Of a stretch of DNA of 29,000 nt, positions 11,502 to 23,763 are shown in pieces; position 1 is the first letter of the stretch, and each line of letters opens with the position of its first letter. The DNA is from a virus: positions 1 to 29,000 of the IMG/VR virus record IMGVR_UViG_3300024255_000110. One strand, 5' to 3'. The translations under genes and the position numbers were made by a program. Under the pieces are notes generated by a model that saw only the letters and a program-made list of their open reading frames with translations, was not told the DNA's origin and did not search any database.

Positions 11502-11509
11502 TATTTATA
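11502..11509 (-). promoter_or_regulatory. T4-type late promoter (TATAAATA) with embedded stop codon
   Basis: Exact TATAAATA on the minus strand, 22 bases before the gp25 ATG. The TAA stop codon of the upstream beta-helix gene (11505-11507) lies inside the promoter octamer, so the two signals share bases. Confidence 0.8.
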
Positions 11510-13568
11510 CTATAATTTCAATGAGTTCTTTGTTTGTTTGTACCTTATTATTAAACACTGTTTCTAAATTCATACCATATACACAGTCATAGTCTTCACC
11601 TACTTTAGGCATGTCAATAATAATTTGTGCATTAATTAATCCACTAGGATCAAAGGTGTCGTAATCAAGGGTTAACTTATCGTAAAATAAAAAGTCTTTT
11701 AGGTACACTGCCAAATCAAAAGTTTTTTCGCTAGCCTGGCTTCCAGTTTCATCTATAAGTTCATATACTACACGTCTTCCTTTAGACGCAAGCCAATTAG
11801 GAGTATCAGTTTGCAAAGTTTCGCCAGGACCTGCTCTATACACACCTTCAACTACTACTAATCTAAAATCTCTAAATCTTCCTTCGTCATTAGAAATCTT
11901 TTTAAGAACTTCTCCGTGCAAATATAATTGTCTTGCTAAATCAAGCTTATCACTTTCTTTTGAAATATGATCAAGGGTTACTTGGTCACCTCTACCTCCT
12001 AAGAATTTAGCAAGAGATATACCTCTATTTAGTTTTGTTTTAGAAGTAATTTTTCCTGCGTTGTTTGGATTAAAAACTGGATCAGGAATAATAGCTATAG
12101 CTCTAGGTTTAGGTACAACTCTTTTAGAATTTTCTGAAGGATTCCTTTGACCAATCTTATCTATCCCTAAGATTTTCGTCGGTTTTTTACTTTCAATCCT
12201 ACCAATTTTCGGAGGAGTGGTATTAGCGTATGTGCTAGAAAGAACCGAAGAACCAATCGCAGTGCCAATGAATTTCTCGTTGTTTTGGACATCTGGATCC
12301 CTCAATTTACTTCTTACTTCTCTTGTTGTTAAAGGTTTTTTCGAAACCCCGCCTGTTTTTTCTTCGTAATTAATTGCATTGAAAAGATCTTTATTATTAT
12401 CAATTTTTACTTTTGCTACTCCGTATGCAGATTTATTTAGATAATCTGTCAAAAGAGTTTCAGTTGGTAAAGCTGTGGCTTTAGGATCTACTGGTTCTGC
12501 AGTATGTGTTTCGGATGTTAATGTTCCACCACCTGAACCAGGACCTAACGGAGCTGACCCAGCCTCATCTGCTTGTGCAGCAAATGAAGCTTTACCTACA
12601 AGAGAACCATGGAATGTTGTGGCATGCATAGATGTCGCATTCACTCGTTGAGTATATGCAGTGTTTGTCGTAATAGTATCTGTTGCTGTAATAGAATGTC
12701 CTGTGTACATGTTATAGTTGTACATCACGATGTTCTGTCCACCTATAGTTCCGGTATCACCAAACACTGACATTACTTGAGCTGCAATATTTATGTCAGG
12801 AGCTGATACAATAACCTGCTTTTCAGAAGTTGCTTTTATTTGGTCTGATGCAGAAATAGAAACCTTTCCTTCAACACTTGTTCTATAATTACCTTGGACT
12901 ACGTTGTTATAACCTTTAAGTGATGTTTCGCTTGAAGTTCCTGTTGTAGTTGAGCCTTTATTGCCATCAATAATAGTATTATGATTTCCATGGACTCGCT
13001 CTCTATAATTTCCATCAATTTCTTTTACTTCATCGCCAGCAACATTAATATTATAGTTGCCTCCAATTTTTAAGTTATAATCTCCTGCAACATCTAAGTT
13101 TAAGTTGCCGTTGTATTGGAGATCAGCATCACCTTCAATAATTACTTTACTATCCCCTTGCACAACAGTGATGTGATTATTTTTAGTTGCAATAAGAATA
13201 GTTCCATCAGCACGCATTTCAACTCCAGCACCAGTTTTATGCCGGATAAGAATACGTTCTCCTGAAGGAGTGTCATCTATTTCAATTACATGCCCGCTTC
13301 TAGATTCATTAACCTGATTAAAAGGATATTGAGAAACTGGAGGCTTATCTAAATCTAAGCTTAAATCTAAATTACCGCCACCAACATATAAATCATTCCT
13401 AGTAATTCCTCTAGCAGCTGTGTTAATGCTTGGACCAAAAAAGTAATTGGCTCTTGGATATTTACCTGTGACATCATGGAATCCTGTTTTATAAACGCCT
13501 AACGAGTTTTCTCGGCCTTGGCCAAGAGTATTTTCGCGATCTTTTAGTTCATCGTTTTCTGTGCTCAT
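11505..13568 (-). CDS. Spike protein with gp5-type beta-helix (gp5 C-terminal counterpart)
   Basis: A 687-residue protein. Residues about 92-270 are strings of short beta strands with regular Gly turns (HVIEIDD.PSGERILIRHKTGAGVE, then VAGDYNLKIGGNYNINVAGD, IDGNYRERVHGNHN). This is the octad-repeat pattern of the T4 gp5 C-terminal triple-stranded beta-helix and of VgrG spikes. In T4 this helix is the central membrane-piercing spike. Residues 1-90 and roughly 290-687 are additional and of unknown fold. The Pro/Lys-rich middle around 430-500 looks disordered. No lysozyme motif is present. It overlaps the amidase gene by one base. The extra C-terminal 400 residues are unusual for a spike and may form an additional hub domain. 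Confidence 0.8.
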   Translation of the reverse strand: MSTENDELKDRENTLGQGRENSLGVYKTGFHDVTGKYPRANYFFGPSINTAARGITRNDLYVGGGNLDLSLDLDKPPVSQYPFNQVNESRSGHVIEIDDTPSGERILIRHKTGAGVEMRADGTILIATKNNHITVVQGDSKVIIEGDADLQYNGNLNLDVAGDYNLKIGGNYNINVAGDEVKEIDGNYRERVHGNHNTIIDGNKGSTTTGTSSETSLKGYNNVVQGNYRTSVEGKVSISASDQIKATSEKQVIVSAPDINIAAQVMSVFGDTGTIGGQNIVMYNYNMYTGHSITATDTITTNTAYTQRVNATSMHATTFHGSLVGKASFAAQADEAGSAPLGPGSGGGTLTSETHTAEPVDPKATALPTETLLTDYLNKSAYGVAKVKIDNNKDLFNAINYEEKTGGVSKKPLTTREVRSKLRDPDVQNNEKFIGTAIGSSVLSSTYANTTPPKIGRIESKKPTKILGIDKIGQRNPSENSKRVVPKPRAIAIIPDPVFNPNNAGKITSKTKLNRGISLAKFLGGRGDQVTLDHISKESDKLDLARQLYLHGEVLKKISNDEGRFRDFRLVVVEGVYRAGPGETLQTDTPNWLASKGRRVVYELIDETGSQASEKTFDLAVYLKDFLFYDKLTLDYDTFDPSGLINAQIIIDMPKVGEDYDCVYGMNLETVFNNKVQTNKELIEIIV

Positions 13569-15310
13569 TATGCAATTCCTGTATTAATTTCTATTGATGC
13601 TTTAGCTAATTGTCTAGGTGACAATGGCCGGGTTTTACCGGTAGCAGAAACATTCACTTTTCCAAATTTATTAAATACGTATTGTGGGACATCAAAACCT
13701 GGATCTTGTTTTCCTTTATCGTCTGTATCAACATGGCCCCAAGCTTGAGATCCTGGGAATACATCATAAAAACATTTCATAAACTTATCAAAGGTTTTCA
13801 TTTGTTCTTCATTTATAGATTCAGATCCTACGTACCTATCTCTGTTTGGAGTACCACTTAAACAATTATACCCACCTACAAAACAAATACCTACGCTAAA
13901 TAGGTTGTGACTATTATCTTTAGCGTGACTTCCTCGTTTACTAATAGGACGACCTCTTTGTATTCTTCCATCTTTACGAATAACGTAATGATATCCACAT
14001 CCAGAAAATCCTCTTTGAGTATGCCATTCATGGATTTCTTCAGCACCAATATCTTGATCTAAAAATGTTGCTGACCAATGAACTACAACTTCAGTTATAT
14101 CTCTAGTAACAGATCTTAGCTCTGCTTCAAGTTCTTCCATACTTGAAACATACGTAAAACCATATAAAGGTTTTTGTCTTGTATATGTTGTAGTGCCTCC
14201 GCCGGTGACAATGCTTTTTTCTACTGAGGTTTTTTCAGTTGTAATTTTTGTAGTAGATCCAGTCTTTTCATTTCTTATAACAATGTTTTCAGTATCAGTG
14301 TCAGTTACAGATAAAATTTCTGAGCGTTGAGCTACAATTTCAGGACTAGCTCTTACAGTAGCAGTATTAGCGATAGGAGTATTTGCATCATCCCATGCAG
14401 CAGATCCTGCTCCAATAATTTCTGCTGGTACTGTTGAAGTTCCAAGATCTTCATCTAAAGGATCAAGGACAACCGCATTGCTTACAGACGTAGATAAACC
14501 TGAAAGTCCTTCTTCAAAATTATCTACAGGAATATCAGGAGCTATTGTCTTCAAAAGATTAACAGCCTTTTCAATTTCTGTAGGAAGTTCAAGAGAAATG
14601 TTTTTAGTGATACTATCTAAATTTACAGGACTAATTCCAGCGCCACCAACAAGTTGTTTTAACGTTGTGGTTATTGTTTTGTCTATTTCTAAAACGACTG
14701 CTTCTAAAATATTAGGTGCACCTGTACCTTGTGTAGCCGCTAGTCTTTGTTCTAATTTTACAACATCGCTTTTGAATTCAGATGCAATAGCAGCTGCAGT
14801 ATCAAGACCCTTTTTAATAGTGTCAGTTAAAGTTGCTCTTAATTCAGGTGAAGTAAGATCGTCAATAGCGTCTGTAAGTTGATCTTCTGTTTTTCCTGTA
14901 GCTTCAACTAAGCTTTCTTTAATTGCTTTAGGATTACAAGCTTGAGCAAACTCCTTTAAGAATCCATCTTTAATTTCACCGTCAGATGGTCCTTCACTTG
15001 CACCAACAATTGCGTCCAAAGAAACTTTATTATCAACTGTTTCAACTAAATCAGCTGCTAATCCTGGAACATTTTCTGACATAAAACAAACGGCATCACC
15101 TGGAACTAAGTCATAGCTATGGTCAGCAGATTGTGTTATAGGAACAAATCCGTTAAGCTCATTTAAGTCTTGACCTAGTTTGGTTTGGTTCACTGCGTTA
15201 AATCTATTGATTGCAGCCTGAGCTGCAGCGTCTACTTCTGCAGACTGTGATCTAGCTCTGGTTCTTAAAGTTTCTATAGATGAATTTAATTTTTCTTTTG
15301 TAATACTCAT
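13568..15310 (-). CDS. Baseplate protein with C-terminal N-acetylmuramoyl-L-alanine amidase domain
   Basis: A 580-residue protein. Residues 1-340 are Ala/Asp/Glu-rich, largely helical and of unknown fold. Residues about 403-550 form a type-2 amidase/PGRP domain like T7 lysozyme. Candidate zinc ligands are H411 (VVVHWSAT), H526 (AWGHVD) and D536 (KQDPG). The candidate catalytic Tyr is Y440, 29 residues after H411, the same spacing as H17-Y46 in T7 lysozyme. A Lys (K534) precedes the third ligand by two, as in T7. The enzyme would cut the bond between the glycan strand and stem peptide of peptidoglycan. It lies between the gp5-type OB protein and the beta-helix protein, with coupled junctions on both sides, so it is probably virion-borne and used for wall penetration rather than host lysis. 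Confidence 0.85.
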   Translation of the reverse strand: MSITKEKLNSSIETLRTRARSQSAEVDAAAQAAINRFNAVNQTKLGQDLNELNGFVPITQSADHSYDLVPGDAVCFMSENVPGLAADLVETVDNKVSLDAIVGASEGPSDGEIKDGFLKEFAQACNPKAIKESLVEATGKTEDQLTDAIDDLTSPELRATLTDTIKKGLDTAAAIASEFKSDVVKLEQRLAATQGTGAPNILEAVVLEIDKTITTTLKQLVGGAGISPVNLDSITKNISLELPTEIEKAVNLLKTIAPDIPVDNFEEGLSGLSTSVSNAVVLDPLDEDLGTSTVPAEIIGAGSAAWDDANTPIANTATVRASPEIVAQRSEILSVTDTDTENIVIRNEKTGSTTKITTEKTSVEKSIVTGGGTTTYTRQKPLYGFTYVSSMEELEAELRSVTRDITEVVVHWSATFLDQDIGAEEIHEWHTQRGFSGCGYHYVIRKDGRIQRGRPISKRGSHAKDNSHNLFSVGICFVGGYNCLSGTPNRDRYVGSESINEEQMKTFDKFMKCFYDVFPGSQAWGHVDTDDKGKQDPGFDVPQYVFNKFGKVNVSATGKTRPLSPRQLAKASIEINTGIA

Positions 15311-16128
15311 CCAAATCTCTCCATAATACCTTCAGCAGTTTTAATTCTAAGATCATCTTGAACTCTATCTTCTTTCATATATTTTTCTCTAAAAATATTA
15401 ACAGCGGAAGATACAGTATTCATTTTAAGTAATTGACCTAAGCCAAGGTTACTGTGAGATCTCAATTCATAGACAATGAATTGTAATTGTGTATCAAACA
15501 ACTTAAAGTCTAACGCTCTTTGGCCAGCAAAAAACTTTAACCTTTCGTATCTACTACCAACAACCTCATCACTATTCCAACCAGCTAAACCAAATCTTAA
15601 ATTTCTACTAGAGGCAGGATCTAGCTTTTTACTTGAAAACACAGAAAGACATCCTATTATTGCTGCTGCTTGCACTGCTGAAAAATTAAATGCTAAGAAA
15701 AAGTTGTATGCCTTTTCTCCAGGAGAGTTTCCTACAATATAAGATCCTTCGTCACTTGATTGAGTAAGAGCATTTTCATTTCCTGTTAAAGCAAGAAGTT
15801 GCTGTTTATTTGGATCTTCAGTGTTAGGAACGGTTCCCATAATAAAAGGAATTTGAGATGACTCACCATCAAGGAATATTCCAAAAACTTTTGCACCTTC
15901 AACTATTTGCGGCATCCTACCAATTCCTGAAATTCCTCCTTCTGTAGTGGGAAGAAGACATTGAGCCCAAGGCAAAGATTCAGAAGGAAGGTTTGTGATA
16001 GTGTCTGGATGGATTCCATAAATTCTAACTTGCACGCGACCAAGTTGCAAAGGGTCATTGGAATTAATTGCAATACCAAGAAACCATCTATTATTATCGC
16101 CGTAATAGAAACTTTCAATATTTTTCAT
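15307..16128 (-). CDS. gp5-like OB-fold protein with degenerate tail-lysozyme domain
   Basis: A 273-residue protein. Residues 10-105 match the gp5/VgrG N-terminal OB fold (WFLGIAI...DPL.LGRVQVRIYGIHPD, then LPWAQCLLP, G..V.GIFLDGE.S..PFIMGTVPN). In T4 this domain sits against gp27. Residues 137-222 resemble a phage tail lysozyme domain (KAYNFFLAFNFSAVQAAAIIG, FGLAGW in place of GIAQW, D.QLQFIVYEL). The expected catalytic Glu of the GNLxxE motif is absent: the aligned string is GCLSVF (159-164). The domain is therefore probably inactive or structural. The protein has no beta-helix; that is in a separate gene. Junctions to both neighbours are 4-base ATGA overlaps. Confidence 0.82.
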   Translation of the reverse strand: MKNIESFYYGDNNRWFLGIAINSNDPLQLGRVQVRIYGIHPDTITNLPSESLPWAQCLLPTTEGGISGIGRMPQIVEGAKVFGIFLDGESSQIPFIMGTVPNTEDPNKQQLLALTGNENALTQSSDEGSYIVGNSPGEKAYNFFLAFNFSAVQAAAIIGCLSVFSSKKLDPASSRNLRFGLAGWNSDEVVGSRYERLKFFAGQRALDFKLFDTQLQFIVYELRSHSNLGLGQLLKMNTVSSAVNIFREKYMKEDRVQDDLRIKTAEGIMERFG

Positions 16129-20403: not shown

Positions 20404-21015
20404 ATGGCGTACTCAGTAGATACATTTAAGTCAGAACTTCGCCAAGGCATTGCAATGAGCAATGTTTGGCGTGTATTACTACCCTCTCTTCCAGGGTCAA
20501 GTGGAAGACAACTTAATCTACTATGCAAAACCGCAAACATGCCTGGGAGACAAATACTAACGGCCGATCGTCAGTATGGCATGAAAATGCAAAAGGTTGC
20601 TTATGGATATGCTGTTGATGACGTATCATTATCGTTTCATCTATTAAATGATTACGGAGTAAAAAACTATTTTGATAACTGGGCAGCAATGGCTATTAAT
20701 CAAGAGAATCAAGAAACATCATACAAAAAAGAATATTGTTTTGATGTAGTTATACAACAACTAAGAAAAGATGCGATATTAGATCTTGGCTTTAGCTTTA
20801 GCTTTGGACCAATTAATATTAGTGGTGATATCATAACACCAGATCAAATATCTTATACGTGCGTTTTAGAAGACGCATTCCCAACCTCCATGAACGCTCA
20901 AGAATTTACGAACGATCAAGGTGGGCAAAGCGAACTGAGTGTGCAACTATCATACTCAAATTGGAAATCTCGGTCAGGTGGTCCACTTGGATTCTTGGCT
21001 AATCTCATACGATAA
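20404..21015 (+). CDS. Tail tube protein of the gp19 family (gp19 or gp54-type)
   Basis: A 203-residue protein that begins right after the preceding stop codon. The pattern of an N-terminal FKSELRQGIAMSNVWRVLLP, then LLCKTANMPGRQI, the Y.....VAYGY.VDDVSLSFHLL.DYGVKNYFDNW block and a C-terminal LEDAFPTSM segment fits the gp19-type tail tube fold. T4 gp19 is 163 residues. It could be the major tube subunit or a gp54-like tube initiator. The neighbouring gp26-like and tape-measure genes favour a tail-initiation role, while the length favours a simple tube subunit. No sheath gene (gp18) is in the window, so I leave the choice open. Confidence 0.78.
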   Translation: MAYSVDTFKSELRQGIAMSNVWRVLLPSLPGSSGRQLNLLCKTANMPGRQILTADRQYGMKMQKVAYGYAVDDVSLSFHLLNDYGVKNYFDNWAAMAINQENQETSYKKEYCFDVVIQQLRKDAILDLGFSFSFGPINISGDIITPDQISYTCVLEDAFPTSMNAQEFTNDQGGQSELSVQLSYSNWKSRSGGPLGFLANLIR

Positions 21016-21028
21016 ATTGGAGTAAATT

Positions 21029-21742
21029 ATGGCACTGCCAAAAATTAATTCGGCACCGAAATATACGATGACAATACCTTCCACTGGTAAGGAAGTTGGA
21101 TTCAGACCATTTTTGGTTAAAGAAGAAAAAATTCTTATGATGGCTATGGAGACCGGTGATCAAGCTGGTACTCTTAACGCAATCTTAGAAACATTAAAAT
21201 CATGTATCAGCGGAGAAGTTGACGAAAAAAAATTAGCAGCTTATGATGTTGAGTACATGTTCTTACAACTTAGATCTAAAAGCGTAGGTGAAACAAGCAC
21301 TGTTGCACTACCATGCTCTAGTTGTAAAGAGACGACTCCAGTAAAAATTCAACTGGACACTATTGAAGTTAAAAAAGATGATACGGTAGATGAAGTAGTA
21401 AAGTTAACTGATAATATTTCTATTAAAATGAAATACCCTTCATTCCACGATCTATTAGGTGCAGGTATTGATCCTGAAAAAATGAATGAAGTTGATACTA
21501 TATTTAAGATTCTAACAAGGTGTATTGATGGTGTCATGACAGATGATGAATTTCATCCTGCTCAAGACGAAACAGAAGAAGAACTGCAAGAATTTCTTGA
21601 ATCATTAAATAGTGAGCAGTTCAGTAATGTAAGAAAGTTTGTTGAGGCTATTCCACAACTTAAAACAAATGTTGAGTTTAAGTGTGAACATTGTGGTATT
21701 GAAAACAATCAAGAGATAAGCGGCATAGCAAATTTTTTCTAA
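21029..21742 (+). CDS. 26: Baseplate hub assembly protein, gp26-like (tail chaperone, 0-frame product)
   Basis: A 237-residue protein (T4 gp26 is 208) with a clear GGAG ribosome site. It starts MALPKINSAPKYTMTIPSTG, with FRPFLVKEEKILMMA, AYDVEYMFLQLRSKSVGE and KYPSF, all typical of the T4 gp26/base plate protein family (Pfam T4 baseplate, from memory). Two CxxC pairs, C96/C99 and C219/C222, may bind one zinc ion. The middle (residues 150-210) is acidic. It is likely a tail-hub or tail-initiation chaperone and lies before the tape measure. The last codons AAT TTT TTC TAA contain a slippery heptamer, so a second, longer product is predicted. Confidence 0.88.
   Translation: MALPKINSAPKYTMTIPSTGKEVGFRPFLVKEEKILMMAMETGDQAGTLNAILETLKSCISGEVDEKKLAAYDVEYMFLQLRSKSVGETSTVALPCSSCKETTPVKIQLDTIEVKKDDTVDEVVKLTDNISIKMKYPSFHDLLGAGIDPEKMNEVDTIFKILTRCIDGVMTDDEFHPAQDETEEELQEFLESLNSEQFSNVRKFVEAIPQLKTNVEFKCEHCGIENNQEISGIANFF
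21733..21739 (+). promoter_or_regulatory. -1 ribosomal frameshift site (T TTT TTC) at the gp26-like stop
   Basis: In the gp26-like frame the bases are split T TTT TTC, a perfect X XXY YYZ heptamer, directly followed by the TAA stop. A -1 slip moves the ribosome into the frame that stays open to 21933. Two competing stems lie downstream: 21755-21760 with 21769-21774 (ATGATT/AATCAT), and 21758-21764 with 21780-21786 (ATTCGTT/AACGAAT). Confidence 0.65.
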
Positions 21743-21933
21743 TAGCCCTTTCTCATGATTCGTTAGTAAATCATTATAAAACGAATTTTCATCTGATGCA
21801 GCATCATAACTATAGTCTTGGAGATCTGGAATCAATGATACCGTGGGAAAGGGAGTTATACGTTACTATGCTACAAGAACATCTTAAGGAAGAAAAGGCT
21901 CGATATGAGCAGGCTAAAATGAGGGGCAGATAA
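21739..21933 (+). CDS. Frameshift extension of the gp26-like protein (gp51 position, GT-like)
   Basis: A 64-codon frame in -1 phase to the gp26-like gene. It ends with TAA just before the tape-measure ATG (TAAATG). It encodes LIALSHDSLVNHYKTNFHL near the junction, then SMIPWERELYVTMLQEHLKE, then a basic, helical end. The PWERE.Y..ML..H...E pattern matches the T-domain type of tail assembly chaperones as I know it. No start codon with a ribosome site serves it: the first in-frame ATG (21796) has no Shine-Dalgarno sequence and would drop the first 19 residues. It is most likely made as a 301-residue fusion with gp26-like. T4 has gene 51 at this place, but its protein is 249 residues. Confidence 0.7.
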   Translation, partial: LIALSHDSLVNHYKTNFHLMQHHNYSLGDLESMIPWERELYVTMLQEHLKEEKARYEQAKMRGR

Positions 21934-23763
21934 ATGCCAAATCCAAACGCAGGCGTATTCCAAAAAATACGAGAAGAACTCGTAACAGCGAATGAACATC
22001 ATACAGCTGGTACTCAAGAGATAGTTCAATTAAGAACAACTTTTGAGAAAATGATGGACGTGGAAAAACAAGCTAAACTTGATCAGCTTGAAGCTATGCG
22101 TGAAAACACTAAAGAAAGTGTTAGTGGTGCAGGACTTGCAGGTGCTGGTGCTGAAATGGGTGGAACTGTCAAAGAAAAATCCGGTGGACTATTAGGAAAA
22201 CTTTTAGGTGGTGGCCTGATGATTGCAGCTGCTGCAGGTCTTGCAGCAATCGTAGCTGGTATCATGGCGTTTATGACACTTGATGTTGATTCTATCATAG
22301 GTAATGTTAAGAAGTTATTTACTATTGGCGATCTTGCCGATGGCATGGGTGATGCTTTTGAAAAGGGTGGCAAGTTTTTCTTGATTATGACAGGCCTTGG
22401 TGCTGGCCTCCTGGTCTTTGGTGTAGGTAGTGCTGTTGCTGGTGCATCTGATAAGTTTATAGGTATGGATGTTGATAGCATTAAAAGCAATGTTATACAA
22501 CTATTGTCTATTGGTCCTGAGGTTGAAGCTGGCGGTGGTTCCTTTATTGGTGGAGGTGCTAAGTTCCTATTAGCAATGACAGGCTTAGGTCTAGGTCTTG
22601 CTGTATTCGGCGTTGGCTCTGCTATTGCAGGCATGTCCGACAAATTGTTAGATAGATTCAACGGCGATTTTGCAACAAGCATTAAAAATAATGTTTTAAC
22701 TTTATTGTCTATTGGTCCTGCTATTGCTAAAGATGGAGCCAGCTTTATGGGAGAAGGTGCTAAGTTCTTATTAGCAATGACTGGCATTGGTTTAGGCCTA
22801 GCTGTCTTTGGAGGTGGATCTGCACTAGCTGCTTTGGCTACTGGTTTGGATGCTGGTGTTGCAGCTATGACAGGCCAAGGATTTGCTGAAAGTATAAAAC
22901 AAAGTGTATTCACTCTACTTTCTATTGGTACTGAAATTGAAGCCAAGGGTGGTAGCTTTATAGGAGAGTCTGCTGGTTTCCTATTAGCAATGACTGGATT
23001 AGGACTTGGTCTTGTAGCATTCTCTGCTGGCCAAGCGTTTTCCTCTGTTATTGGTTTCTTTACTGGAGACAACAGTCAAAAGGTTAAAGACAGTGTTCTA
23101 AAACTATTAAGTATTACAGATGCTCTTGGAGAAAACCCAAAGGCTACTGCAGCAAGCTTTAGAGATGCAATGCGTTATATGGGAGATGCATTATCTGGCT
23201 TTGCAAAAAGTCAAGCAGATGCTTCATGGTCTTCACTAAAAGATAATATTATGGGATTCTTTGGTGGAGGATCACAAGGACCAATGGATCAGCTTTTGAA
23301 GCTCGGTGAAAAACAAGAAGAATTATTTCTAGCTGGCATAGCATTAGATCAGTTAGCTGAAGGATTAGAAAGAATATCTAGTCTAAAGCTAGATGGCGAT
23401 TATATGAGTCTTAATGATTTTGCAGAGGATCTGCTTAAGTCAGTACCTGCAATTGAAACAGCTTTAATGGGTGGTACTGTTGGTGAAGGTTGGATTTCTT
23501 CAGGAACAAAAATCAAAGGCCTTGCTTCTCCTGATGTTGACTTCGAAAGGGCTGCAACAAATATTAAATTAATTCAAGCTGCATTAAAAGCAGAGCAGAC
23601 TGCAAATGCTACAGCATATTCAAACGACGCTCAAGCTACTGCAGCTCCTCCTATTATTAATAATATCACAAACAATTATTATTCAGGTGGCGGTAGTAAT
23701 ACTACAATGATTGCACCTAATGCTAGTGCTGTTCAAGATGCTAGGAAAAAATTAACAAGATAA
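21934..23763 (+). CDS. Tail length tape measure / hub protein (gp29 position) with internal repeats
   Basis: A 609-residue protein (T4 gp29 is 590). It lies right after the chaperone pair with a GAGGGG ribosome site. A helical N-terminus (1-60) precedes a Gly/Ala-rich hydrophobic stretch (84-114). Then come four to five tandem repeats of 62-71 residues between about residues 117 and 395. Each repeat has I(K)xNVxxLLSIG, then GGSFIGxGAKFLLAMTGLGLGLAVF. Such hydrophobic segments are typical of tape measures, which insert into or cross the host membrane at infection. The C-terminal part is helical, followed by a PPIINNITNNYYSGGGS segment. The length would fit a short to medium myovirus tail, assuming the usual rise per residue in a helix. 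Confidence 0.8.
   Translation: MPNPNAGVFQKIREELVTANEHHTAGTQEIVQLRTTFEKMMDVEKQAKLDQLEAMRENTKESVSGAGLAGAGAEMGGTVKEKSGGLLGKLLGGGLMIAAAAGLAAIVAGIMAFMTLDVDSIIGNVKKLFTIGDLADGMGDAFEKGGKFFLIMTGLGAGLLVFGVGSAVAGASDKFIGMDVDSIKSNVIQLLSIGPEVEAGGGSFIGGGAKFLLAMTGLGLGLAVFGVGSAIAGMSDKLLDRFNGDFATSIKNNVLTLLSIGPAIAKDGASFMGEGAKFLLAMTGIGLGLAVFGGGSALAALATGLDAGVAAMTGQGFAESIKQSVFTLLSIGTEIEAKGGSFIGESAGFLLAMTGLGLGLVAFSAGQAFSSVIGFFTGDNSQKVKDSVLKLLSITDALGENPKATAASFRDAMRYMGDALSGFAKSQADASWSSLKDNIMGFFGGGSQGPMDQLLKLGEKQEELFLAGIALDQLAEGLERISSLKLDGDYMSLNDFAEDLLKSVPAIETALMGGTVGEGWISSGTKIKGLASPDVDFERAATNIKLIQAALKAEQTANATAYSNDAQATAAPPIINNITNNYYSGGGSNTTMIAPNASAVQDARKKLTR
22280..23118 (+). repeat. Tandem repeats in the tape measure gene
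   Basis: Protein-level repeats with period 62-71 residues. LLSIG-type motifs occur near residues 128-132, 191-194, 258-261 and 329-332, with LLSIT at about 391. The FLLAMTGLGLGL-type motif occurs near 148, 211, 278 and 349. The DNA also repeats locally, for example GTCTATTGGTCCTG in the second and third copies and TATTAGCAATGAC in three copies. The repeats diverge enough to be old duplications. Confidence 0.75.

Follow-up and report, generated by a model that had tools for sequence, protein, structure and literature searches.

The window analyzed here (the whole stretch of 29,000 nucleotides) very probably carries the tail assembly chaperone (TAC) cassette of a T4-like (Kyanoviridae-type) marine phage, in which a -1 frameshift is predicted from the sequence to yield two forms of the chaperone, one of 237 and one of 301 amino acids (aa). 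For a large clade of marine T4-like phages, we also lean modestly toward the view that this chaperone frameshift is tuned by a long-range RNA stem, which closes a three-way junction and has arms that covary synonymously, and that other clades use different structures at about the same spacing.

Organization of the locus

The gp26-like gene (nucleotides 21029 to 21742; all features of the cassette are on the plus strand) encodes the putative short form (TAC-N) of 237 aa. Direct reading of its 0-frame end gives GCA AAT TTT TTC TAA (21728 to 21742). The slippery heptamer T TTT TTC (21733 to 21739) is in the X XXY YYZ phase, and the TAA stop codon that closes the short form (21740 to 21742) follows directly, as had been claimed in the original prediction. 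The -1 frame from position 21739 reads LIALSHDSLVNHYKTNFHLMQHHNYSLGDLESMIPWERELYVTMLQEHLKEEKARYEQAKMRGR and comprises 64 aa, referred to here as the extension (TAC-C, corresponding to the gp51 C-terminal domain; 21739 to 21933 with its stop codon). Its TAA (21931 to 21933) adjoins the ATG at 21934, which confirms the 64 open codons ending at TAAATG that had been described. The gp26-like gene and the extension joined by a -1 slip amount to 301 aa, and both product sizes given originally are thus correct. On the 5' side, the -1 frame is open only as far back as a stop codon ~12 codons upstream of the gp26 stop. The earliest ATG, GTG, or TTG in this frame is extension codon 20, within a conserved block, in agreement with the earlier observation that the extension has no usable start or ribosome site.

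The gp26-like protein matched the Pfam family PF12322 (T4_baseplate; E value, 2e-61) and the PHROG family phrog_150 (baseplate hub; E value, 2e-64). The extension matched phrog_634 (baseplate hub assembly catalyst, gp51; E value, 2e-26) and also the C-terminal end (last 47 positions) of phrog_150 (E value, 1e-6), meaning that the PHROG profile of gp26 itself continues into the extension. The gp26 part and the extension were modelled with AF2 separately, not as a fused protein. The model of the gp26-like protein was confident (mean pLDDT, 89.5), and three helices were predicted for the extension. When the gp26 model was compared with the PDB using Foldseek, the highest probabilities among the hits shown were weak and belonged to 3fgx (0.47), which we take to be a TAC-like protein, and to the HK97 TAC 2ob9 (0.44). 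Because the E values of both are above 1 (1.7 for 2ob9), this fold resemblance is a hint only. PDB sequence searches produced no match. Each of the two models, that of gp26 and that of the extension, matched the BFVD entry A0A8S0HX62 (182 aa), which therefore may be a natural in-frame fusion.

Directly upstream of the gp26-like gene, the window encodes a tail-tube-like protein (20404 to 21015; phrog_45 tail tube; E value, 2e-30). The 609-aa ORF that begins at the end of the extension (21934 to 23763) is in the tape-measure position. Its product has a polar N terminus followed by tandem hydrophobic Gly/Ala-rich repeats, as expected for a tape measure; there are several such repeats in tandem, of ~70 aa each and of the FLLAMTGLGLGLAVFGVGSA type. 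Pfam and PHROG searches gave no family match for this ORF, and it is a candidate tape measure, assigned by its position and composition only.

In another region of the window, on the minus strand (11505 to 16128), a gp5-like hub/lysozyme seems to be split across ORFs. The ORF at 15307 to 16128 matches the start of phrog_430 (positions 15 to 111), and the ORF at 11505 to 13568 matches a later part (positions 332 to 586). Between these two is a 580-aa ORF with an amidase domain (13568 to 15310), which overlaps its neighbours by 4 and 1 bases.

Conservation of the slip site

Relatives of the locus were gathered on the basis of gp26 protein similarity, without reference to the heptamer, and annotated phages were included: S-PM2, S-SM1, Melnitz, AG-345-F15, Milchi, vB_OspM_OC, Ah1, RHph_I34, Marzo, X1, Cr30, nt-1, IG49, S-CAM4, S-PRM1, S-CRM01, and S-RIM14. 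One contig (L132), which ends upstream of the gp26 stop, was left out. The resulting 177 loci are partly redundant, with 103 left at a cutoff of <90% DNA identity across the slip region, and the first 94 loci form 48 clusters at 60% protein identity. Two IMG/VR contigs (L096 and L097) have a gp26 that is 99% identical to that of the window, with identical slip region and stem, and are probably more contigs of the same phage species.

An in-phase TTTTTT located zero to three codons before the gp26 stop, together with the same -1 extension, was present in all 177 loci, down to ~25% identity. Elsewhere in the gp26 genes, TTTTTT in the slip phase occurs ~9 times per 21,700 codons, and by chance it is expected within the last four codons of a gene in fewer than 0.2% of cases; a chance origin of the heptamer is rejected on this comparison. 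Conservation of the extension begins right after the slip site, and the synonymous sites around the heptamer vary. The alignment thus agrees with the original prediction, in that the heptamer and the -1 frame are kept while nearby synonymous sites change, and a search for relatives that have lost the heptamer found none among the 177 loci.

Codon choice at the slip site is similarly restricted. The codon ahead of the two slip-site Phe codons ends in T in all 48 clusters, whether it encodes N, S, D, A, or G (P ~1e-9 given codon usage). The first slip-site Phe (codon 236) is TTT in 48 of 48 clusters versus 72% TTT in the same genes, and the joint P value for the T-ending codon and the TTT Phe is ~2e-16 (48 clusters; uncorrected for phylogeny). 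In a per-codon scan, codon 236 was the sole scored column with zero codon entropy, and other conserved Phe positions used both codons (position 28, for instance, has 20 TTT and 18 TTC). As judged from these alignments, the constraint at the slip site is one that acts on nucleotides. U_UUU_UUC is an efficient frameshift motif in E. coli (PMC4066793).

A T run of six to eight is found in all sequences, and the fusion could accordingly be ascribed to transcriptional slippage on this run, not to ribosomal frameshifting. However, the run consists of exactly six T residues in 75 of the 94 loci, which is short for polymerase slippage, and most runs end in C, which breaks them. The X XXY YYZ codon phase is also under selection, and the covarying stem described below is at the spacing typical of a stimulator of ribosomal frameshifting. 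We consider slippage of the polymerase to be extremely unlikely and favor frameshifting by the ribosome.

An SD-like GAGG/AAGG element 11 to 15 nt ahead of the slip is overrepresented in the relatives (z, -1.15 ± 0.35 versus the synonymous expectation) and is seen, e.g., in L001, L018, L028, L059, and L093. This element is common in most relatives but absent from the window, and an upstream SD-like stimulator is therefore not part of the explanation for the window.

Annotation of the extension in public records

In the public records, the extension is either given as a separate gp51 coding sequence (CDS) with varying starts or is unannotated (S-CAM4, S-PRM1, and Ah1); none of the records opened has a joined frameshift CDS. 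Public cyanophage annotations accordingly imply a small, independent gene 51 whose product is the extension, translated by re-initiation or from its own start, and many records (S-PM2, S-SM1, Melnitz, RHph_I34, nt-1, and S-CRM01) do contain a distinct gp51 CDS past or overlapping the gp26 stop. Several observations argue against this: (i) in the window, no start codon precedes residue 20 of the frame; (ii) the annotated starts vary among relatives; (iii) conservation sets in immediately past the slip site, and the heptamer is kept even where a possible start exists; and (iv) the TTT constraint and the downstream stem are both left unexplained by re-initiation. We also looked for relatives that could initiate the extension independently, with a start codon and a ribosome site, and a start within 8 codons combined with an SD-like site was found for the extension in 1 of 94 loci versus 55 of 92 gp26 starts. 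A separate gene 51 is thus very improbable, and independent initiation of the extension, like transcriptional slippage, was considered and rejected. The earlier frameshift interpretation is supported, the fusion product being a predicted one.

The gp51 starts are inconsistent, or gp51 is not annotated, in L001, L002, L004, L087 to L095, and L176 to L179. In these records, from cyanophages and other T4-like phages, the gp51 entries appear to be misannotations of a C-terminal domain that would be encoded by frameshifting.

Long-range RNA stem downstream of the heptamer

In the predicted fold of the window, a 12-bp stem closes a three-way junction. Its 5' arm, CCCTTTCTCATG (21746 to 21757), starts 6 nt past the heptamer, and its 3' arm, CGTGGGAAAGGG (21842 to 21853), is in the codons of the P-W-E-R motif; both arms were assigned on the basis of the minimum free energy (MFE) fold, pair counts, and covariation. 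The arms are ~85 nt apart, and both are inside conserved protein motifs (A-L-S-H and P-W-E-R). Within the predicted junction, a first inner hairpin of 7 bp (21758 to 21786; 21758 to 21764 pairing with 21780 to 21786) and a second inner arm (21789 to 21838) come from fold prediction only. The norm for the spacer between heptamer and stimulator is 5 to 9 nt (PMC5009743), and the 6-nt spacer of the window falls inside this range.

The region from 21740 to 21865 has an MFE of -30.7 kcal/mol (z, -2.67 versus dinucleotide shuffles). Synonymous-codon shuffles, which preserve the protein and the codon pool, revealed excess folding just past the slip site (z, -1.28 ± 0.19; 48 clusters) and little excess within the body of the gene (z, +0.02 to -0.63) or farther along the extension.

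Covariation was analyzed in a clade of 48 sequences around the window, unfiltered. In this clade, a mean of 10.1 of the 12 stem positions pair versus 4.9 to 8.1 with one arm slid, and the fold has a z value of -2.74 ± 0.21 versus synonymous shuffles. Of 1021 site-pair associations, i.e., all complementary associations between variable sites in the clade, the top two are the variable Watson-Crick pairs of the stem (P values of 7e-7 and 1e-5, uncorrected for ancestry). These Y-R pairs, located at alignment sites 14-119 and 17-116, are at third codon positions and are synonymous on both sides, the covarying codons being GCC/GCT with AGG/AGA and CTT/CTC with GAA/GAG. C-G and T-A pairs swap several times on the tree of the clade. 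Between the window and a 72% relative (L098), there is one compensated T-A to C-G change, which is likewise synonymous on both sides. The arms of each sequence also pair better with each other than swapped arms do, none of 5000 permutations being as good. A separate set of 46 sequences, partly picked for the stem, scored 0.141 for covariation versus 0.103 ± 0.008 in shuffles.

The covariation might be an artefact of codon or GC bias and of ancestry, the stem being without a role; this reading bears on the stem only and not on the frameshift. The arms encode the conserved A-L-S-H and P-W-E-R residues, which alone favor pairing: the stem is present in ~21 of 48 synonymous-shuffled folds versus 38 of 48 real ones. 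The sequences are also related, and the stem is absent outside one clade. GC bias and ancestry, however, touch all 1021 pairs, yet it is the predicted pairs that occupy the first two ranks. The repeated C-G/T-A interchange on the tree, the compensated change relative to L098, and the outcome of the 5000 permutations similarly speak against an artefact, which we regard as unlikely. From the sequence comparisons, the long-range stem probably stimulates the slip.

The stem is confined to the one clade, with other structures or no clear structure elsewhere, and it emerged only once long-range arms were tested and this clade was taken alone. Folding 42 diverse relatives to a consensus yielded no common structure, the cyanophage clade showed no clear or convincing stem when scanned for covariation, and an Rfam search returned nothing above the gathering score. 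S-PM2 has a strong local hairpin past the slip site (-16.7 kcal/mol; z, -4.37), and in five other loci (L011, L020, L021, L055, and L077), the same 5' region pairs with codons located ~50 nt downstream. The downstream structures of L001 (2473 to 2535) and of these five loci differ and have their onset at about the same spacing.

Comparison with T4 and with frameshift systems

Genes 26 and 51 of T4 lie on opposite strands, and gene 51 is followed by genes 27, 28, and 29. T4 gp26 and gp51 both match phrog_150 as well as PF12322 (E values of 9e-64 and 4e-52, respectively). Only gp51 has the extension domain, with a match to phrog_634, which makes T4 gp51 an in-frame counterpart of the 301-aa fusion predicted for the window. 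In domain content, the short form of the window corresponds to gp26 and the long form to gp51. The two systems differ in that T4 devotes an individual gene to each form, one per strand, and needs no frameshift, gene 51 being fused in one frame, whereas the long form of the window is not a gene of its own in one frame, its extension being in the -1 frame without a start. The original prediction had equated T4 genes 26 and 51 with the lambda G/GT system. This equation stands for gp26 as the short form and gp51 as the long form, but not for the proposed layout, in which the two T4 genes were separate halves at these places: gene 26 is on the opposite strand, and gp51 already includes a gp26-like domain.

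The abstract of Vladimirov et al. reportedly describes frameshifting as conserved in several T4-like groups, the T4 group using genes 26 and 51. That work (Vladimirov, Gautam & Davidson 2022, Virology 566:9-15) identified the tail assembly chaperones of T4-like phages. It is cited in two later papers, for T4-like phages in which the short form and the fused long form each have their own gene (PRFect; PMC10885494) and for poly-T frameshift signals in T4-like TAC-N genes (phage Adele; PMC12846349). A 2016 review (PMC5009743) still gave T4 as an exception to G-T frameshifting. Because the 2022 work and the papers citing it cover TAC frameshifting in T4-like phages, our core finding is already of a published kind. 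The frameshift mechanism is known for this phage group, and the window is a divergent additional member, with the same proposed short/long chaperone pair as the T4-like TAC-N/TAC-NC of Vladimirov et al.

The locus is like lambda G/GT in having a predicted -1 slip close to where the first gene ends, an extension in the -1 frame, a location before the candidate tape measure, and a presumed short/long ratio. It differs in the slip site (G GGA AAG in lambda and U UUU UUC in the window), in the zinc-ribbon-like cysteines of its gp26, and in the conserved downstream stem, and family searches found no sequence relationship between the window proteins and lambda G/GT. In IS911, a three-way junction with constituent stem-loops also serves as a -1 frameshift stimulator (PMC5009743); the likeness is an analogy only, and in the window the 3' arm falls within a conserved protein motif ~100 nt downstream. 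The Vandenendeviridae and Andersonviridae (phage Adele; PMC12846349) likewise have, toward the 3' end of TAC-N, a conserved T-rich signal for a -1 slip and an extension that is often misannotated, whereas the Adele motif is GTTTTT and the phage families are others. The text of PMC12846349 does not mention a hairpin or other RNA structure at the frameshift site. Within the searchable literature, a scope that does not extend to the text of Vladimirov et al. 2022, no covarying stimulator was found for the tail chaperone frameshift of T4-like phages, and the conserved long-range stem as a promoter of the slip in these phages may be a new detail.

Proposed mechanism and implications

According to the mechanism that we propose, most ribosomes would stop at 21740 and produce the short form of 237 aa (TAC-N, gp26). 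The remaining minority, whose two Phe tRNAs sit on TTT TTC, would slip back one base to TTT TTT and continue in the -1 frame, giving the 301-aa TAC-NC, i.e., gp26 joined to the gp51-type C-terminal domain. The 12-bp stem six bases past the slip site, closing the three-way junction, probably holds the ribosome and would in this way set the rate of frameshifting and the ratio of the two forms. As in lambda G/GT, the putative chaperone function would be divided, the short form coating the tape measure protein and the extension of the long form recruiting tail tube subunits.

The reading in which tail chaperones solve the puzzle of T4 genes 26 and 51 was published in 2022. Our results support the view that the frameshift route to tail chaperones has been kept in marine T4-like phages as well as in the diverged Ah1, nt-1, Cr30, rhizobial, and Stenotrophomonas phages; in T4, by contrast, a separate fused gene encodes the long form. 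The covarying RNA element offers a directly testable handle on how the ratio of the short and long forms is set.
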